A stretch of 64,000 nucleotides of DNA, from NCBI GenBank assembly GCA_937124965.1, contig CAKZLB010000017.1:62001-126000 (forward strand), read 5' to 3'. Shown here piece after piece: positions 48,506-56,768 of this stretch. Source of the stretch: an uncultured Bacteroidota bacterium. Lineage in GTDB: Bacteria; Bacteroidota; Bacteroidia; NS11-12g; UBA9320. Both the position numbers and the translations under genes were made by a program. A model generated the notes under the pieces. The model did no database searches. It was not told the origin of the DNA and saw nothing but the letters and a program-made list of their open reading frames with translations. Numbering within the stretch: position 1 is the first letter of the stretch; each line of letters begins with the position of its first letter.

Positions 48506-49078
48506 TTAAGGTTTAATTATAATGTTCAAATGTTCCACCAATCCAGTAAGCCCTTCTCTAGAAAACAATGCCTGATCAACCTGGTTATTATCAGGGTTTA
48601 GTTGATACCCACGTGCATTGCTAAAATCAGTTTTAGAGAGATTGGTTTGGCCAAACGCAGCCGACTGTAAATCACAGTCATCCAGAGAAAGACCGGATAG
48701 GTTTGCTTCAATAAATTCAGTCTCCCTCATATCGCAGGCATTGAAAGACGATTTCGTTAAGTCCAAACCGTAATAAGACGAGTATCGCAAAAGACATTTG
48801 TCGAAATGTAGTTCGAGTAGAAAGGTATTTGAAAGATCAAACCGCATTCCTTGTAGTTTGCAATCACAAAAAGTCACGGAACGCCAAGCACACATGCATA
48901 TGGAGGCATTAACAAATTCGCATTCGACAAACTCACAATCCAGAAACACAGTTTTTGAAAAATTCACATTTGTGAAAATACATCGTTTAAATACACATGC
49001 CTCAAGTTCGCAGCCTGCTAAATCATTATCATGAAACTCTTTTGAGAATTCTTCATTGTAAAACGAGTCTTGTTGCAT
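48506..49078 (-). CDS. Pentapeptide-repeat protein
   Basis: The 190-residue protein consists largely of A(D/N)LxX-type repeats (for example FNACDMRETEFIEANLSGLSL, DLQSAAFGQTNLSKTDFSNA), which fold into a right-handed quadrilateral helix. Its layout recalls McbG/Qnr-like proteins that mimic DNA and protect gyrase, but that role cannot be claimed from sequence. The start ATG overlaps the stop of the lipoprotein gene as TAATG. Confidence 0.82.
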   Translation of the reverse strand: MQQDSFYNEEFSKEFHDNDLAGCELEACVFKRCIFTNVNFSKTVFLDCEFVECEFVNASICMCAWRSVTFCDCKLQGMRFDLSNTFLLELHFDKCLLRYSSYYGLDLTKSSFNACDMRETEFIEANLSGLSLDDCDLQSAAFGQTNLSKTDFSNARGYQLNPDNNQVDQALFSREGLTGLVEHLNIIIKP

Positions 49079-49575
49079 TACGGTTTACTTATTTCAAAAT
49101 AACGTGTTTCGAGAGTGTTGTTCAAAAAAGATTTATATCCAGAACTAGTATCTAGCTTGGTTTTAAACCCGTTCACAACGGTGCTGACTTCTTCGGCCGT
49201 TGTCGCTGGCGTAAATTGAGCAGTTTTAAAGTATAAGTTAAGTTGGTCTTGATCTTCACAAAATTTTTGCTCAAATGAATACCGCAATTCCATTACACCA
49301 AGTGATGCAGTGTCAAGTAAAATTTCATAGGTCATTGTGTCGCCATTCATATCAACTGGGGCAAAAATTCCAGAATCACCGGCAGCATATAATGTGTCTC
49401 CAATCCCACGAACATTAAGAAAATAGATTCCAAATGTGTCGTTAGAATTTAGTTTAAAATGAATTGTAGGTTCTTCTGAAAAGCCTTCACACAATACCAT
49501 TGGATTGTCGCTGGTACATCGACCGAACAAAACAAGCAATAGAAAAACAGGAAGTAGTAACATAGGTTTTTTCAT
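49078..49575 (-). CDS. Exported, probably lipid-anchored protein of unknown function
   Basis: I start at ATG 49575, which overlaps the upstream TGA as TGATG (a GTG three bases earlier is possible). The product has 165 residues. The signal is LLLVLFGRC with Cys at about 20; Arg just before Cys is unusual for a lipobox, so lipidation is uncertain. Mature part is beta-rich with two more Cys (VLCEG, KFCED). No family recognised. Confidence 0.6.
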   Translation of the reverse strand: MKKPMLLLPVFLLLVLFGRCTSDNPMVLCEGFSEEPTIHFKLNSNDTFGIYFLNVRGIGDTLYAAGDSGIFAPVDMNGDTMTYEILLDTASLGVMELRYSFEQKFCEDQDQLNLYFKTAQFTPATTAEEVSTVVNGFKTKLDTSSGYKSFLNNTLETRYFEISKP

Positions 49576-50258
49576 CACTTTTTACTTTTCAATTGGTTAA
49601 TGGCAATATGAATTCCAAAGCCAGGATTAAATGGACCGTTTTTAGTTATTCCAATGGCTGGTATATACTGATGATTCAAGAATGCTTCTTCTTTGAGCGT
49701 ATGACGCGTAAGCTGGAATGGATAAATATCGAAACGAACAACGCGATCAAACAGAATTTCATACCCTATTCTAAGTTCGGAATACGAGTAACGAACGTTT
49801 TGTTCAGTAACTTGAGCCTCTAAGTTTTGATAAAATAGACCTTCATAAACTTCCTGTCCAGCAAAATTCAAGGTTCCTTGTCCGCTGGAATAGCTAACAA
49901 TAAGTCCATGTTTCAATCGATAGCTTTTGACAGGCTTGAAATAGTTGTGCGAAACAAAGGAAATACCAAATCCTAAATACCTTCCTGTTGTTTTAGTAGT
50001 TGAAAATCCCATCAGATTGTAATGGGTATGATCGGCTGTTCCACCTTGTATTTTGAATTCTGTATGTGGTATTGCGCGCAAATTATACTCCAGCATATAG
50101 GAGTATCGAGTACGAACATGCACTCCAAAATTGTGCATGATGTATGGCTTGTAATTAAGAAAAGTATCAGACGAAACGGTATCCGATTTAATCGTTACCT
50201 GCGCTGTGCTTGCGAAGGACAAACAAAACAGAAAGAAGATGCCAACCAACGTTTTCAC
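49575..50258 (-). CDS. Exported barrel-like protein of unknown function
   Basis: The open frame extends to 50318, but GTG at 50258 gives a standard signal peptide (MKTLVGIFFLFCLSFASTAQ), so I place the start there (227 residues). The mature part alternates aromatic and polar residues (YMLEYNLRAIPHTEF, RLKHGLIVSYSSGQG, SYSELRIGYEILF), which fits a small outer-membrane barrel. It is first in a three-gene operon with the lipoprotein and pentapeptide genes and divergent from the PKD protein. Confidence 0.6.
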   Translation of the reverse strand: MKTLVGIFFLFCLSFASTAQVTIKSDTVSSDTFLNYKPYIMHNFGVHVRTRYSYMLEYNLRAIPHTEFKIQGGTADHTHYNLMGFSTTKTTGRYLGFGISFVSHNYFKPVKSYRLKHGLIVSYSSGQGTLNFAGQEVYEGLFYQNLEAQVTEQNVRYSYSELRIGYEILFDRVVRFDIYPFQLTRHTLKEEAFLNHQYIPAIGITKNGPFNPGFGIHIAINQLKSKK

Positions 50259-50386
50259 GAAACGAAGGTACAAAAGTTCCAATAGTTGTAAATTGTAACT
50301 GCCTGATTTATAAGACACAAGAAAAAAGATTAACTTTCCACCAACGATTTACATTTTCAATCCGTATTGAAAGTAAAAGAATGATT

Positions 50387-52522
50387 ATGAAAAAAATAAT
50401 ACTTATAGCATTGACAATGATTGGTTGTCTTTCGCTTGCTAGTGAGACTCAGGCTCAGTGTAGAGCGGACTTCTCGTATTCCTCATCTGGTTCAGGGGTG
50501 TTTGTTTTTGCAGATTCAACTGGCTCTAGATACACCACAGATAAATGGGACCTTGGTGATGGTAACACCTACTCAAAAACGACAACACAATTCACACACA
50601 CGTATAAACCAGGAACATATAAAGTATGCAGAATGGTTTGGGACTCACTAAAGTCTTGCAGAGACACTTTTTGCGCAACGGTAACGTATTCAGCAAAAAC
50701 ATGTAAAGCACTTTTTTCGTATAAAGTTTCAAGCGATTCAGTACTTTTTACAAATACAAGTACCAATGGCGTTTATTTAAGTTGGGATTTTGGAGATGGA
50801 GCGAGCAGTGGCGCCACCAATCCTTTGCACATTTACAAAAAAAGTAACACAACTTACACGGTTTGTTTAACAATTTACGATAGCCTACGAACGTGCACCG
50901 ACAAATATTGTGCGTATGTGAGAACAGCAGGTTCAACCACTTCTAAGTGTGATGCTAGTTTTTCAAGTCAAACTTCAGGTACTTCCACGGTTTTTGTTGC
51001 AAATTCACGAACAGCAACTAAGTATACATGGCTTTTTGGCGATGGAAATACAAGTAATTCGACCGTATCAACACATACCTACAAATCAACCGCTTCCGGA
51101 AATGATACAACGTATCAAGCATGTTTAATTGTTGAAGATTCCGTTAACAAGTGTAGTGATACTGTGTGTAAATCAATTGTTGTAAAAAGCTCATCAGGCT
51201 CTGGCTGTAATGCTTCTTTTACCACAACTCAAGGAAATACATATGTAGTGTTTCGTGCAAATACTACCGGGAGTTCAAAAGGTATTTCCTACACATGGGA
51301 TTACGGTGATAGCTCAACCGGAACAAGTGCAACAACAACACATTTGTATACAGTTCCTAAAGGATTTAAAGTGTATACGTATCAAGCTTGTTTAACTGTT
51401 TATGATTCGTCAACAAGATGTTCAGAAACAAACTGTAAGGCGATTGTTGTGTATAAAGACACCTGTGCAGCGTCCTTTACTGCTACGAAAAGAGGTCTTA
51501 TTGCTAGTTTTAATAATACAAGCAGCTATTCTAAAACCACAAAATATCTTTGGGATTTTGGAGATGGAGACACCATGAGTGCTTCGCATCCTACCCATAA
51601 TTATACAAAACCCGGAACCTATTATGTATGTCTATCGGTTACAGATACGGCAAATAGTTGTAATACAAAGTTTTGTGATAGCATTGTTGTAGATACTTCT
51701 TCAACTACTCCAAGTTGTAAAGCAGACTTCGACATCAAAGTGACCAACGATACCTTAATAGAATTGACAAATAAGTCTACTGGTGGAACGAGTTACGCAT
51801 GGTCATATTTAGGAAGCGGAAGAGCAACATCTAAAAACTTAAATTTTGTTGTAAAGAAGGCGGGGCAATATGATGTATGTTTAAGCATCTACGACTCAAT
51901 TACTGGATGTTTTGACTCTACCTGTAAAGTTGTGATAATCCAATCTGCTAAAAAGTGTCGAGCTGCGTTCCGAGTTGCAATCGATACATCACAAGCATTT
52001 AAGCTTTTCTTACTTAATGGTTCGTCAAATTACTCGTCGCATCAATACAAATGGTCGTTTGGCGATGGCGGAACATCAACGAAACGCAACCCTTCCCATA
52101 AATACACGTCAAATGGTTTATTTAATGTGTGCCTAACCATTACCGATTCAACCTTAAACTGCACTTCCGTTTATTGTGATAGTATTGGTTTAGATTCGAA
52201 TGGAAAACTACTAAAACTAGAAGGGTTTGAATTGGAAGTAATTGAGGATTTCTCTAACGTTAAAAATGCAACCAAGATTGAATCCAAGTTATATCCAAAT
52301 CCATTTAATACTGAATTTACCGTTGAGTTAGAGTCAAGCTTTAACGAATCTGCACGTGTCAGAGTATTAAATCTGCAGGGGAAACTTGTCGCTGAAAAAA
52401 CACCAACCTTGGAAGGTAGAGTTACCTTTGATATGAAAAATGAAACTGACGGAATGTACATCATTCAAATATTTGATGGCAAATCCACTAGTCAAACCAA
52501 ATTGCTTAAAATGAGTAAGTAA
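50387..52522 (+). CDS. PKD-repeat T9SS-secreted protein
   Basis: I start at ATG 50387 (711 residues; ATG 50381 is also possible). A long upstream frame lies in the divergent gene and is not real. After a signal peptide (ending ASETQAQ) there are seven PKD-type repeats of about 85 residues, most with WDFGDG or WxFGDG and a closing YxVCLTxxDS, each with paired Cys. The C-terminal 80 residues form a type A T9SS signal (SKLYPNPFNTEF ... DGMYIIQIFDG). Likely a surface or extracellular structural protein. Confidence 0.88.
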   Translation: MKKIILIALTMIGCLSLASETQAQCRADFSYSSSGSGVFVFADSTGSRYTTDKWDLGDGNTYSKTTTQFTHTYKPGTYKVCRMVWDSLKSCRDTFCATVTYSAKTCKALFSYKVSSDSVLFTNTSTNGVYLSWDFGDGASSGATNPLHIYKKSNTTYTVCLTIYDSLRTCTDKYCAYVRTAGSTTSKCDASFSSQTSGTSTVFVANSRTATKYTWLFGDGNTSNSTVSTHTYKSTASGNDTTYQACLIVEDSVNKCSDTVCKSIVVKSSSGSGCNASFTTTQGNTYVVFRANTTGSSKGISYTWDYGDSSTGTSATTTHLYTVPKGFKVYTYQACLTVYDSSTRCSETNCKAIVVYKDTCAASFTATKRGLIASFNNTSSYSKTTKYLWDFGDGDTMSASHPTHNYTKPGTYYVCLSVTDTANSCNTKFCDSIVVDTSSTTPSCKADFDIKVTNDTLIELTNKSTGGTSYAWSYLGSGRATSKNLNFVVKKAGQYDVCLSIYDSITGCFDSTCKVVIIQSAKKCRAAFRVAIDTSQAFKLFLLNGSSNYSSHQYKWSFGDGGTSTKRNPSHKYTSNGLFNVCLTITDSTLNCTSVYCDSIGLDSNGKLLKLEGFELEVIEDFSNVKNATKIESKLYPNPFNTEFTVELESSFNESARVRVLNLQGKLVAEKTPTLEGRVTFDMKNETDGMYIIQIFDGKSTSQTKLLKMSK

Positions 52523-52541
52523 TGTAAATTAATCTAAATTG

Positions 52542-52570
52542 AAGCGGAGGTCAATTGGCTTCCGCTTTCT
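52542..52570 (+). terminator. Probable terminator of the PKD gene
   Basis: AAGCGGA (52542-52548) pairs with TCCGCTT (52561-52567); the loop holds the palindrome CAATTG and TTCTATATTT follows. The T-run is broken, so it is only probable. It lies 19 bases after the PKD stop and just before the sigma factor gene. Confidence 0.55.
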
Positions 52571-52576
52571 ATATTT

Positions 52577-53137
52577 ATGCCAATAGACAGCAAGCTGATA
52601 AAAAGGTGTTTAAAGAATGATCGCCGTTCTCAAAACGAGCTCTATAAAGAGTTGTTCAGCTTTTTAATGAATATATGTATCCGGTATAAAAATAACTATG
52701 ATGATGCAGGAGCCTCACTTAATACAATTTACCTGAAGGTTTTAAAAGGGTTAAAGGATTATGATGAATCTGTATCAATTTTACCTTGGGTGAAAACAAT
52801 AGCGGTTCGACATTTAATAGATGAATATAGGTCTGAAAAAAGACATGAGTCATTAAGCTTAGATGAAATACCTTCTGAAGCTACAAGCAGCCATGTTATG
52901 AATGCAGAAAGCTTACAGACCGAAGATATTTTGAAACTGCTGAATTGTTTACCAGAGGTTACGCGAAATGTGTTTAACCTTTTTGTTGTCGATGGATACA
53001 AACACCGAGAAATTGGCGATTTGTTGAATATGAGCGAGGGTAATTCAAAGTGGCATTTAAACCAAGCTAGAACGTGTTTACAAGCGTTTATTAATACTGA
53101 AAAGAAGAGATTGGAGTCAATAAAATTAGAGCTATGA
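52577..53137 (+). CDS. ECF-type RNA polymerase sigma factor
   Basis: The 186-residue protein has region 2 (about 15-85, with DESVSILPWVKTIAVRHLIDEYRSEKR) and region 4 (about 125-175, LPEVTRNVFNLFVVDGYKHREIGDLLNMSEGNSKWHLNQAR), separated by a short linker. This is the layout of extracytoplasmic-function sigma factors. Its stop overlaps the start of the next gene as ATGA. The partner gene encodes a candidate anti-sigma factor. It sits between two T9SS-secreted protein genes, which may be its targets. Confidence 0.88.
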   Translation: MPIDSKLIKRCLKNDRRSQNELYKELFSFLMNICIRYKNNYDDAGASLNTIYLKVLKGLKDYDESVSILPWVKTIAVRHLIDEYRSEKRHESLSLDEIPSEATSSHVMNAESLQTEDILKLLNCLPEVTRNVFNLFVVDGYKHREIGDLLNMSEGNSKWHLNQARTCLQAFINTEKKRLESIKLEL

Positions 53138-54516
53138 GCGATTTAAAAAACATAGACGACCTAATAAAAAAAGGAATAGAAAAGGAGTATCCTGTTGATG
53201 GGCAGTTGTGGTCTGCTGCACAAAATCAGCTGGATGCCGTATTCCCAGTAAAAGCCAAAAAGCTTGGTTGGGTATATGCGGGTGCGACCACATTAATAGT
53301 GGCAATCGCATGTTTATATTTCCTTAATTCTCATAAATCGAGCCAACAAACAGCTGTGATAAATGACTCCGAAAACGTAAAAGACCAAATAGCAACAGAC
53401 CAGTCGAGCACTAAAACACATCCAAATAAATCAAACTATAATTCAAACAAATCGACCACTCATAATAGCAATAACTCAAATACTGCAGAAAGAAAATCTA
53501 AAGCATTACCAAAAGAAATTACAAAACATAAAAGTAGTCCAATTAAGCAACATGTAGGTAGTAATCCTGTACATTTTAATACAGGTTCAACGAGTGCAGA
53601 TAAGACCAAGTTTAAGAATAATCCAGACAACCCAACGTCTCCAATCGGAAATCAAACCAATTCCAGGTTTGAACTGAAGCAAGATGCTTATGTAAAGCCA
53701 AATGTAAGTGAAGATGAGAAAATCGGATTTGTTTTGCCCAAACCTCTATCTGAAATGCTAAAATCTGAGCAATCAAAAAACACAAAAGGCGAAGTAGAAG
53801 TGCAGTATAAAAATCCAGTTAAAGCTGATTGGTTTATCGGTGTGTCCACGGGAATTACTTTCAATAGTAGCGATCAGTTTATGGTAGAAGGAACAGAAGG
53901 TTCTTCGATAAATCACAAAAGAACCACGCAATTTGACGTTTTTGGTGGAATCGTGAAAAGGCGCTTGAGTGTATCTATTGGATTTGGACAAGTCGTTCTC
54001 AACAATCAAGTCAATTTAGCACTTACACCAACAACAATAACTGATACGATTTCGATGTCATATCGTATGGTAGAGGAAAATGTGGTAATAAATGGAAGAA
54101 ATGTAAGCTTAATTGAACGACAATTTAACACAGTAGACAAGCTCGATAGTTCAAACAGATTTGAAGAGGTGGAACAAAATGTTCGATATTTTAGAGTACC
54201 TCTAAGAGTGACATATAGATTGCCGTTAAATCGTTTTGAGGTATTAGTGGGGCTTGGCTCTGATCTGTGGTTTACTCCAAACGTTAGGTGGGGTAACTAT
54301 AGCGATCAGCGCTATTCAGTGAAACAAACAGATTTTGCACCTAAGCAATTTGTATTTCGGCCAAACGCTGATATTGGACTTGGCTACCGAGTCAATAGTC
54401 GATTTACAGCCTCAGCGATTTTGACTAAATCACTTACGACAAGTGCAATCATGACGGACGGAGGGAATCGACTAAATTTAAATGGATTGAATCTTAGTTT
54501 AAATTACCGATTATAA
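53134..54516 (+). CDS. Trans-envelope protein: cytoplasmic N-terminus, one membrane helix, C-terminal barrel-like domain
   Basis: The 460-residue protein has a 44-residue cytoplasmic start (ending before a helix at about 45-64), no signal peptide, a Ser/Asn/Lys/Thr-rich linker of about 165 residues, then 230 residues of alternating strands (WFIGVSTGITFN, FDVFGGIVKRRLSVSIGFG, FRVPLRVTYRLPLNRFEV, LNGLNLSLNYRL) ending as outer-membrane barrels do. The N-terminal WSAAQNQLD resembles short anti-sigma segments. The overlap with the sigma gene supports an anti-sigma function reaching from RNA polymerase control to the outer membrane. Confidence 0.65.
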   Translation: MSDLKNIDDLIKKGIEKEYPVDGQLWSAAQNQLDAVFPVKAKKLGWVYAGATTLIVAIACLYFLNSHKSSQQTAVINDSENVKDQIATDQSSTKTHPNKSNYNSNKSTTHNSNNSNTAERKSKALPKEITKHKSSPIKQHVGSNPVHFNTGSTSADKTKFKNNPDNPTSPIGNQTNSRFELKQDAYVKPNVSEDEKIGFVLPKPLSEMLKSEQSKNTKGEVEVQYKNPVKADWFIGVSTGITFNSSDQFMVEGTEGSSINHKRTTQFDVFGGIVKRRLSVSIGFGQVVLNNQVNLALTPTTITDTISMSYRMVEENVVINGRNVSLIERQFNTVDKLDSSNRFEEVEQNVRYFRVPLRVTYRLPLNRFEVLVGLGSDLWFTPNVRWGNYSDQRYSVKQTDFAPKQFVFRPNADIGLGYRVNSRFTASAILTKSLTTSAIMTDGGNRLNLNGLNLSLNYRL

Positions 54517-54674: not shown

Positions 54675-56768
54675 GTGAAGAAACTCAGACATATCATCCT
54701 GTTCGTGTTTGTTTTGTCATGTTCGACGAGCTTGCTTAGCCAATGCCCAGAAACTAATCCAAATTGTAATCAAGTCGTAAACTGGATATTTGGAGATAGT
54801 GTTTGGCTTTACTTCAATGACACTGGAATTGTTCAAAGAAAATCGCCAATAAGCACTAGAGAAGCAAGCTCAGTTATTGTTAAGAAAAGAAGTGACTCTG
54901 TTTTGTTGTACGGCACGCCAGAGATTATATACAATAGCGATGGTTCAATCTTAAATGACTCATTGAAAGGAAACAACTCTTCAGTTCAAGGTTCTTTATT
55001 TTTGAGGCGTGATAACGATTCTATCATTCATTATTTTACAGGAGAAAATTTTTCTTCTTTTTATAGAATTGGACTCTACCATCACACCGCTATTGGAACA
55101 AATATTGTTACAAACAGAACAATTTTACATCCTGCTACAGAGCAACTTACAAGCATAAATCAGCAAAACAATAAAGATTTTTGGCTAATAACGCATAAGG
55201 GAAAGTCCGATTCTTTTTATATATTTCCAGTTACACAAAAAGGTGTTCTGTGTCCCAATATACTGAAAGAGGGTGGTGATTATTTGAAGGGGCAAGGAAC
55301 ACCATATACAAATGGAGTTCAAATAAAAATAAACCCACAAGGAAATAAAGTTTTTGCTCTTCGCTCTGAAAATGATTTCTCAGGAAAATTCAGGGTAGAT
55401 TTGTTTAAATTTAATAAAGAATCAGGCCTATTGTATGACAACATTGATTTGGCTTTTTTTGTACCATTTCATGCTAATTTCTCCCCTAATGGTGACAAGC
55501 TATACATTACAAATTCTAAAATATTCCAATATTCCCTCATGGATTTTAGCCTTAACTCAATTTTAAATTCAGAAACACAAATTACAACAAAAGGCAACAA
55601 TTCGAAGGGAGATCTGAATATTGCTCCTAACGGGAAAATATATATTGCTTATTCTGATTCAACTCATCTTGGTGTCATAAATTTTCCAGATAATGATGGA
55701 ACGGCATGTGATTTTGAAGAAAATGGTCTAGAACTACTTTATGGGAAATCTAGATACGGGCTTCCAAATTTCAATCAAAGCTACTTTTACACACCAAGTA
55801 TAGATTTTGCATATACTGAAAATTGTTGGAGTCATAGGTATCAGTTTGAAGGACGAGATACGTTTAAGGCGACTCAATTTAAGTGGTTGTTTCAAAAAGA
55901 TTCGACACGCGATTCCATTTTAACCAAACATTGTAGTTACCAATTTAGTGATACAGGTAAATGGAAGGTGTGTCATATCGCAAGCAATGGAACGAGAACA
56001 GATACCATCACTAAAACATTAACTATATACCCGCAATGGCAAAAAGATATGTTAGGTACTGATACATTTAATTGCCAAGGAAGTGATTTTAATTTGGTTC
56101 TCAATGCTCCAGAAAATATGCATTGTGTCCATTGGATGGGAGAAGAACCTAACTTGGATGAAACCGAAGGAGAACTTTTAGATTACAACCATTTTCATGT
56201 GGATACGTTTACGGTCGATACCGCAGGAGTTTATGTAATAAAAGCAACTAACAAAACCTTTTGTCAAGTATGGGACACGATCACAGTTGTAGAAAAACCA
56301 AGACCACAGAATCCAATTATTAGTGTGAAAACAGAAGAACTTGCCAGCACGATTAAATCATACCGATATCGTTGGTTTTTGAATGACACGTTTTTATTAG
56401 AAACCGAAAATCGCTCCATTACTCCAAACCGAAATCAATATTATCAAGTACAACTCATTTCTGAGTTTGGTTGTGAGAGTGAACGGTCGGATAGTTTTTT
56501 AGTTGATTTTGTAAGTGTAAAGGACATATTAGATATTAATCAATTCAAAATTTATCCAAACCCAAGCGAAGGTGATTTTACAATACACTTCGACAAACCA
56601 GATGACTATACAGTTGAAGTTTTTGAAATGACAGGAAGTTTAATTATGGTAAATCACCTTGGTAACTCAGTTCTTCATCATTTGTCAATAAAAGGTTCTG
56701 GAAACTACATGGTCAAGATTAGCAGTAAGAATGGCTATATAGGACAACGTATAGTGCAGGTGAAATAA
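54675..56768 (+). CDS. T9SS-secreted protein with propeller-like N-terminus and PKD-like repeats
   Basis: The start is GTG at 54675; translation gives MKKLRHIILFVFVLSCSTSLLSQ, a good signal peptide. The 697-residue product has a first half of 35-50-residue strand units (HANFSPNGDKLYIT, LNIAPNGKIYIAYS) like WD40/propeller proteins of the gliding-motility type, a PKD-like part (FKWLFQKDS ... WKVCHIAS), Ig-like repeats with cysteines, and a type A T9SS domain (FKIYPNPSEGDF ... GNYMVKISS). It is the last gene of a T9SS/sigma cluster. Role unknown. Confidence 0.82.
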   Translation: MKKLRHIILFVFVLSCSTSLLSQCPETNPNCNQVVNWIFGDSVWLYFNDTGIVQRKSPISTREASSVIVKKRSDSVLLYGTPEIIYNSDGSILNDSLKGNNSSVQGSLFLRRDNDSIIHYFTGENFSSFYRIGLYHHTAIGTNIVTNRTILHPATEQLTSINQQNNKDFWLITHKGKSDSFYIFPVTQKGVLCPNILKEGGDYLKGQGTPYTNGVQIKINPQGNKVFALRSENDFSGKFRVDLFKFNKESGLLYDNIDLAFFVPFHANFSPNGDKLYITNSKIFQYSLMDFSLNSILNSETQITTKGNNSKGDLNIAPNGKIYIAYSDSTHLGVINFPDNDGTACDFEENGLELLYGKSRYGLPNFNQSYFYTPSIDFAYTENCWSHRYQFEGRDTFKATQFKWLFQKDSTRDSILTKHCSYQFSDTGKWKVCHIASNGTRTDTITKTLTIYPQWQKDMLGTDTFNCQGSDFNLVLNAPENMHCVHWMGEEPNLDETEGELLDYNHFHVDTFTVDTAGVYVIKATNKTFCQVWDTITVVEKPRPQNPIISVKTEELASTIKSYRYRWFLNDTFLLETENRSITPNRNQYYQVQLISEFGCESERSDSFLVDFVSVKDILDINQFKIYPNPSEGDFTIHFDKPDDYTVEVFEMTGSLIMVNHLGNSVLHHLSIKGSGNYMVKISSKNGYIGQRIVQVK

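Follow-up and report, generated by a model that had tools for sequence, protein, structure and literature searches.

The locus analysed here raises the question of how the state of the outer membrane could be read by an ECF sigma factor through a single polypeptide, and which gene such a regulator would serve. The window, i.e. the whole stretch of 64,000 nucleotides that was analysed, comes from the genome of an uncultured Bacteroidota bacterium and contains an ECF sigma gene that overlaps a gene for a 460-aa protein, with genes for cargo of the type IX secretion system (T9SS) on both sides. We consider it likely that this protein is a Dma-type anti-sigma factor whose gene closes an autoregulated operon, behind a T9SS cargo gene and the sigma gene. 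The gene order, the homology, the cargo linkage, the promoter motif with its position and the hairpin are supported by direct sequence evidence, and the autoregulated wiring is what we infer from them. The features of the locus are as follows.

50341–50366 (+): putative ECF-type promoter CCAACG-N16-CGTA, a bipartite motif with a spacer of exactly 16
50381–52522 (+): T9SS cargo gene, proposed first gene of the operon (PKD_4, 8e-58; Por_Secre_tail, 2e-12)
52541–52568 (+): terminator-like hairpin with a 12-bp stem and a U-rich tail (−18.4 kcal/mol, z −5.4)
52577–53137 (+): ECF sigma factor, 186 aa (Sigma70_r2 and Sigma70_r4_2; TIGR02937, 3.5e-18)
53134–54516 (+): Dma-type protein read as an anti-sigma factor, 460 aa, with an ATGA overlap with the sigma ORF
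53134–53250 (+): its cytoplasmic head, residues 1–39, proposed to bind sigma (two model helices; conserved D8 and W26)
53251–53337 (+): its inner-membrane helix, residues 40–68 (hydropathy and model; lysines towards the head)
53338–53823 (+): its disordered periplasmic tether, residues 69–230 (pLDDT mostly below 50; rich in K, S, N, T and P)
53824–54513 (+): its eight-stranded OmpA-like beta-barrel, residues 231–460 (AlphaFold2 model and structural match)

Architecture of the Dma-type protein

The ORF at 53134–54516 (+) encodes 460 aa and starts within the sigma ORF (52577–53137), the junction CTATGAGC being an ATGA overlap. Its product gave no significant Pfam match and no NCBIfam match. In the AlphaFold2 model, for which the alignment comprised 47 sequences, two head helices (residues 5–16 and 23–36) are followed by a membrane helix at 40–68, where the only hydropathy peak is found (46–64), then by residues 72–227, nearly all with pLDDT below 50, and by eight strands between residues 233 and 459, most of whose cores exceed a pLDDT of 90. 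This agrees with the preliminary description of the locus, which had proposed a short head, one inner-membrane helix and a long linker; the linker takes up about 160–166 residues, and its low-complexity stretch, put at 165 residues, was measured at 166.

The barrel-like character ascribed to the C-terminal part was also borne out by structure prediction, and a non-barrel fold did not occur. The modelled barrel matches NspA (Z 16.8, rmsd 2.8, 155 of 155 residues aligned) and OmpA (Z 15.2–15.7) and also aligns with OmpX, and Pfam OMP_b-brl_2 is present in 23 of the 47 family members. The model supports an eight-stranded barrel of the NspA/OmpA/OmpX type, which would be inserted in the outer membrane. 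Across the 47 family sequences the tether is variable in sequence and measures 121–266 residues (median 162), and W26 of the head is near-invariant. A tether of 121 residues, taken at 0.36 nm each, has a contour length of about 43 nm, more than is required to cross a periplasm.

Sigma partner and homology to Bacteroidales Dma loci

The sigma ORF is assigned to the ECF type by Pfam (Sigma70_r4_2, 1e-11; Sigma70_r2, 7e-7), as had been proposed together with the overlap, and NCBIfam places it above cut-off in the general ECF superfamily only. A Dma homologue follows the related sigma gene in 133 of the 155 sigma loci examined, and in most of these the two genes overlap or almost do so. At some loci sigma and Dma share the same frame; for one of them, the related locus L105 of the cassette group, sigma and head were folded as one covalent chain, with the stop codon read as a residue. 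The resulting model has a mean pLDDT of 88.8 and a pTM of 0.81, with both head helices at about 87–98, and its poorly defined parts are the inter-domain linker of sigma and a short dip around the junction. The sigma of this chain aligns over both domains with RsiW-bound SigW (155 residues, rmsd 4.7), with CnrY-bound CnrH (150 residues, rmsd 5.5) and also with NepR-bound RpoE; the polymerase-bound sigmas that align over both domains are at 20–27 Å. In the model, the sigma of this covalent fusion from a related locus is in a compact, anti-sigma-bound (inhibited) shape, and a similar sigma–head complex would be expected for the window pair.

Homology to known Dma systems was analysed with the Bacteroidales genomes of a class sample, in which NigD genes were also sought. 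In two of these genomes (L281 and L282) the pair is divergent from a NigD-type gene, which is the arrangement expected for a Dma1-like locus. The broad family profile, compared with five Bacteroidales proteins beside sigma genes, gave a probability of 98.8 (E 4e-17) for the barrel. Head against head, the comparison with Bacteroidales Dma reached 90.8 (E 1e-6) and a control, a FecR-like anti-sigma head from the window's own genome, stayed below 1, in a control set that was picked loosely and of which only some members are anti-sigma factors. The profile of the window genus alone reached 19, and the broader profile was required. Homology of head and barrel to the Bacteroidales Dma loci is supported by these sequence profiles, the Dma of Bacteroides thetaiotaomicron being compared by description. 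The suggestion that the 460-aa protein is an anti-sigma factor, made earlier from the overlap with the sigma gene, is supported by structure prediction, homology and co-occurrence with sigma genes.

The family profile matches 129 of the 149 genomes of the class, an upper limit as some matches are barrel-only, and the genome of the window has about ten sigma–Dma pairs. A cassette is also present in the cultivable species Phaeodactylibacter luteus (L092). At another locus (L142) the gene downstream of sigma overlaps it by 4 bases and encodes a 1732-aa protein with a Dma-like start and a membrane helix at 48, which represents a giant variant or a fusion. A genome labelled as a Chitinophaga pinensis MAG (L093, identical with G025) groups in the window's own family, and its species label looks wrong.

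Linkage to T9SS cargo

The preliminary description had placed T9SS cargo on both sides of the pair. Both flanking genes (50381–52522 and 54675–56768) do carry a T9SS type-A sorting domain, but they are not equivalent, and only the upstream one is in the unit. Its product combines PKD repeats with a C-terminal type-A sorting domain; an orthologue occupies the same position in three genus relatives, and cargo precedes sigma also in two further pairs of the same genome. These cassettes are located at L016 9475–13121 (G000 C10) and L056 2699–6884 (G000 C13), and about seven sigma–Dma pairs of this genome have no cargo. The downstream gene was rejected as a member of the unit: it is missing in relatives, and the gene after Dma is cargo in only 10 of 125 cases.

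Linkage was counted in a scan of the genome collection with the sigma alignment (80 loci) and in 60 stretches of the class sample, genes being predicted by a simple caller and cargo recognised by a sorting-domain model derived from the cargo found here; Pfam confirms this domain in each of the 37 cargos that were checked. The same-strand upstream gene is T9SS cargo in 32 of 78 sigma–Dma pairs, where neighbouring gene pairs give a background of 33 in 893; these counts refer to loci rather than independent events and miss some cassettes in which the caller inserted a false gene. The frequency of cargo before sigma is about 11 times the local background (Fisher 6e-21). The linkage is significant in each of the two samples (3e-9 and 7e-10), with 14 of 36 against 17 of 416 in the collection scan and 12 of 32 against 5 of 280 in the class sample. 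Among upstream genes on the opposite strand, cargo was found once in 48.

On a tree of 138 sigmas the cargo label requires 18 changes, at least 12 of these on supported branches, so the cargo arrangement arose or was lost many times. The cargo domains vary as well (PKD in 18 of 37, others SdrD_B or CarboxypepD-type), and a cargo neighbour is present in under half of the sigma–Dma pairs. We conclude that the upstream T9SS cargo gene belongs to one regulatory unit with sigma and Dma. At one locus (L068) a tandem pair of T9SS cargo genes stands ahead of sigma, and the first of them is preceded by the ECF motif.

Promoter motif and hairpin

A bipartite ECF-type motif, SCAACN-N16-CGT, precedes the first gene of sigma–Dma operons across Bacteroidota. 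It was searched as [CG]CAAC[CGT]-N15-17-(CGT or GTC), a pattern set after part of the sequences, mainly the cassettes and the loci of the window's genome, had been viewed, and it was found before cargo in 23 of 36 cassettes and, where cargo is missing, before sigma in 65 of 101 pairs, compared with 29 of 873 (3.3%) for other genes (Fisher 2e-22 and 6e-52). Dinucleotide-resampled sequences gave 1.5 matches in 137 on average. Upstream regions of non-cargo sigmas from two outside samples, unviewed when the pattern was set, match in 61 of 93 cases; the regions ahead of cargo in the class sample do so in only 4 of 11. The spacer is 16 in 78 cases, and any other length occurs at most 5 times. No motif was found in the 38 gaps between cargo and sigma, which are shorter (mean 117 versus about 257 bases), nor directly upstream of five Bacteroidales sigma genes. 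The copy in the window (50341–50366) was missed by the automatic count, the start codon chosen by the caller lying upstream of it.

Published support of an independent kind comes from Flavobacterium psychrophilum, where the mapping of transcription starts revealed an ECF motif whose −10 box is CGT; it lies ahead of T9SS genes and of a sigma/anti-sigma operon (PMC9723704) and fits the motif of the window. The sigma of the window would use the SCAACN-N16-CGT promoter.

A strict search of the window's genome gave 26 matches against 42 for a reversed control, so a large motif regulon cannot be claimed there. At normal gene distance the motif stands only before the cargo of the window, the cargo of C10 and the sigma of another Dma pair (spacer 17). 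A solitary gene with a C-terminus resembling a T9SS sorting domain (L287 from about 1586; G000 C13:153585) has an exact CCAACC-N16-CGTA about 210 bases before its likely start and is a possible further target.

Another candidate for the operon promoter, the block TGTAACYGCCTGATTTWTA (50294–50312), lies between the divergent genes, where four relatives have it conserved, and occurs once in the genome. It was rejected for this role: read on the other strand it resembles the housekeeping form TTG-N19-TAnnTTT, so that it more probably serves the divergent 247-aa gene as its housekeeping promoter. This gene and that of a 166-aa putative lipoprotein (49078–50318, −) are kept beside the cassette in the genus, and neither product has a Pfam or NCBIfam match. 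In the genus relative G004 (L015 7325–9228) only about the final 64 residues of the barrel are left at the orthologous locus, next to the aldehyde-dehydrogenase-like gene. A serine-recombinase-like gene lies immediately upstream, and the cassette has apparently been lost at this locus.

The terminator-like hairpin could separate two transcription units. In the window 8 bases separate the end of its stem from the start codon of sigma, so any promoter of sigma must read through the hairpin, and the cargo would be produced in larger amounts than sigma and Dma. Hairpins with changed stem sequences stand at the same place in three orthologous loci; the window has no Rfam match. Structures of this type occur in 18 of 35 cassettes versus 79 of 355 other gene pairs, so that attenuation cannot be a feature of all cassettes.

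Proposed mechanism and alternative readings

We suggest that the head clamps sigma at the inner membrane, with the disordered tether crossing the periplasm to an OmpA-like barrel inserted in the outer membrane. Sigma may then be released when the barrel perceives a ligand or a disturbance, and once free it would initiate transcription from the SCAACN-N16-CGT promoter that precedes the cargo gene. The surface protein would thereby be produced in quantity, and the hairpin after the cargo gene may limit read-through into sigma and Dma. A cargo-first autoregulated operon with its promoter is not described in the literature searched (open-licence papers only), and the cargo-first operon with an ECF promoter, present here and at dozens of related loci, looks new.

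It could be argued that the protein is a Dma-type anti-sigma factor beside which a separately regulated cargo gene happens to lie in the window. A terminator-like hairpin does stand between cargo and sigma, and such neighbours are not rare in a genome with at least 150 T9SS cargo genes. However, an accident of position has to contend with a linkage about 11-fold above the local background in two independent samples, with its restriction to the same strand (1 of 48 on the opposite one) and with an ECF promoter that is found before cargo and never between cargo and sigma; moreover, the window has no space for a promoter between the hairpin and the sigma start. We therefore regard this reading as improbable. 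Still less credit can be given to the idea that the 460-aa protein is no anti-sigma factor at all, but an outer-membrane barrel whose signal anchor stays uncleaved and whose gene only happens to be in one operon with sigma. The binding of the head to sigma is a prediction, and the window protein lacks a Pfam or NCBIfam match of its own, which would suit this idea, but the conserved cytoplasmic head with its near-invariant W26, the recurring overlap with sigma genes, the sigma–head fusion model of L105 and the homology to Bacteroidales Dma loci all speak against it.

A sharper form of the cargo–sigma–Dma operon model, compatible with it, is that the barrel senses the cargo of its own operon or the T9SS output. 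The recurring operon partnership with differing cargo types is in its favour, as is the case of Porphyromonas gingivalis, in which PorA, itself T9SS cargo, is reported to act through PorXY on an ECF sigma (PMC7712824). Against it, over half of the Dma pairs have no cargo neighbour, and the cargo domains vary (PKD, SdrD_B, CarboxypepD-type); we treat it as a tentative, rather doubtful possibility. Perhaps, then, the cassette is a widespread and repeatedly assembled device in which a polypeptide reaching both membranes measures the display of its own cargo, or T9SS output, and sets transcription, although we would not expect this on present evidence; if true, it would be a self-monitoring surface-protein circuit.

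Comparison with known systems

Dma regulators have so far been studied in gut Bacteroides. The present findings place them in many other Bacteroidota as well and connect them with cargo of type IX secretion. Their probable promoter, SCAACN-N16-CGT, offers a way to predict Dma targets, and the question of what Dma proteins sense and control becomes testable because the likely target gene lies in the same operon.

The FecI/FecR system with its TonB-dependent transducer also connects the outer membrane with an ECF sigma, but through three proteins instead of one. In line with the suggestion that the locus could do without FecR and TonB partners, no FecR domain was matched by Pfam in the anti-sigma protein at E up to 1, and there is no TonB-dependent receptor or transducer among the genes at the locus, which are the two T9SS cargo genes, sigma, the divergent 247-aa and 166-aa proteins and, further on, the aldehyde-dehydrogenase-like gene. 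Sequence similarity between the window family and Bacteroidales Dma is seen at the profile level only, and Bacteroides is not known to use T9SS.

Two systems share the tie to type IX secretion. The SM6 ECF promoters of F. psychrophilum resemble that of the window in having CGT as their −10 box and in lying upstream of T9SS genes and of a sigma/anti-sigma operon, but these are described as genes of the T9SS machinery, not as a single cargo gene within the operon, and the architecture of the anti-sigma factor is not given (PMC9723704, available text). PorA–PorXY–SigP of P. gingivalis likewise ties a T9SS-exported protein to an ECF sigma, but the available description is of a two-component system, without a membrane-spanning anti-sigma factor (PMC7712824).

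The membrane-spanning anti-sigma architecture itself is already known and has been described in Bacteroidales since 2022, when it was presented for M0N98_03760/03761 of Phocaeicola vulgatus (PMC9308784). As in the window, the anti-sigma factor is predicted there to cross the periplasm, its C-terminal part forming a barrel in the outer membrane. Envelope stress induces its regulon, which differs in that it concerns LPS and NigD proteins, and the available text of that paper reports no T9SS cargo in the operon. The name Dma was given in B. thetaiotaomicron (Pardue et al. 2024 PNAS, as cited in PMC13088901). According to the available text of the citing paper, Dma1/Das1 and Dma2/Das2 share with the window protein the N-terminal anti-sigma domain, one membrane helix, the long disordered tether, the C-terminal barrel and the adjacent ECF sigma gene. 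Their published partners are nigD1 and PUL genes (PMC13088901), whereas here a T9SS cargo gene heads the operon and the ECF promoter motif stands before it.
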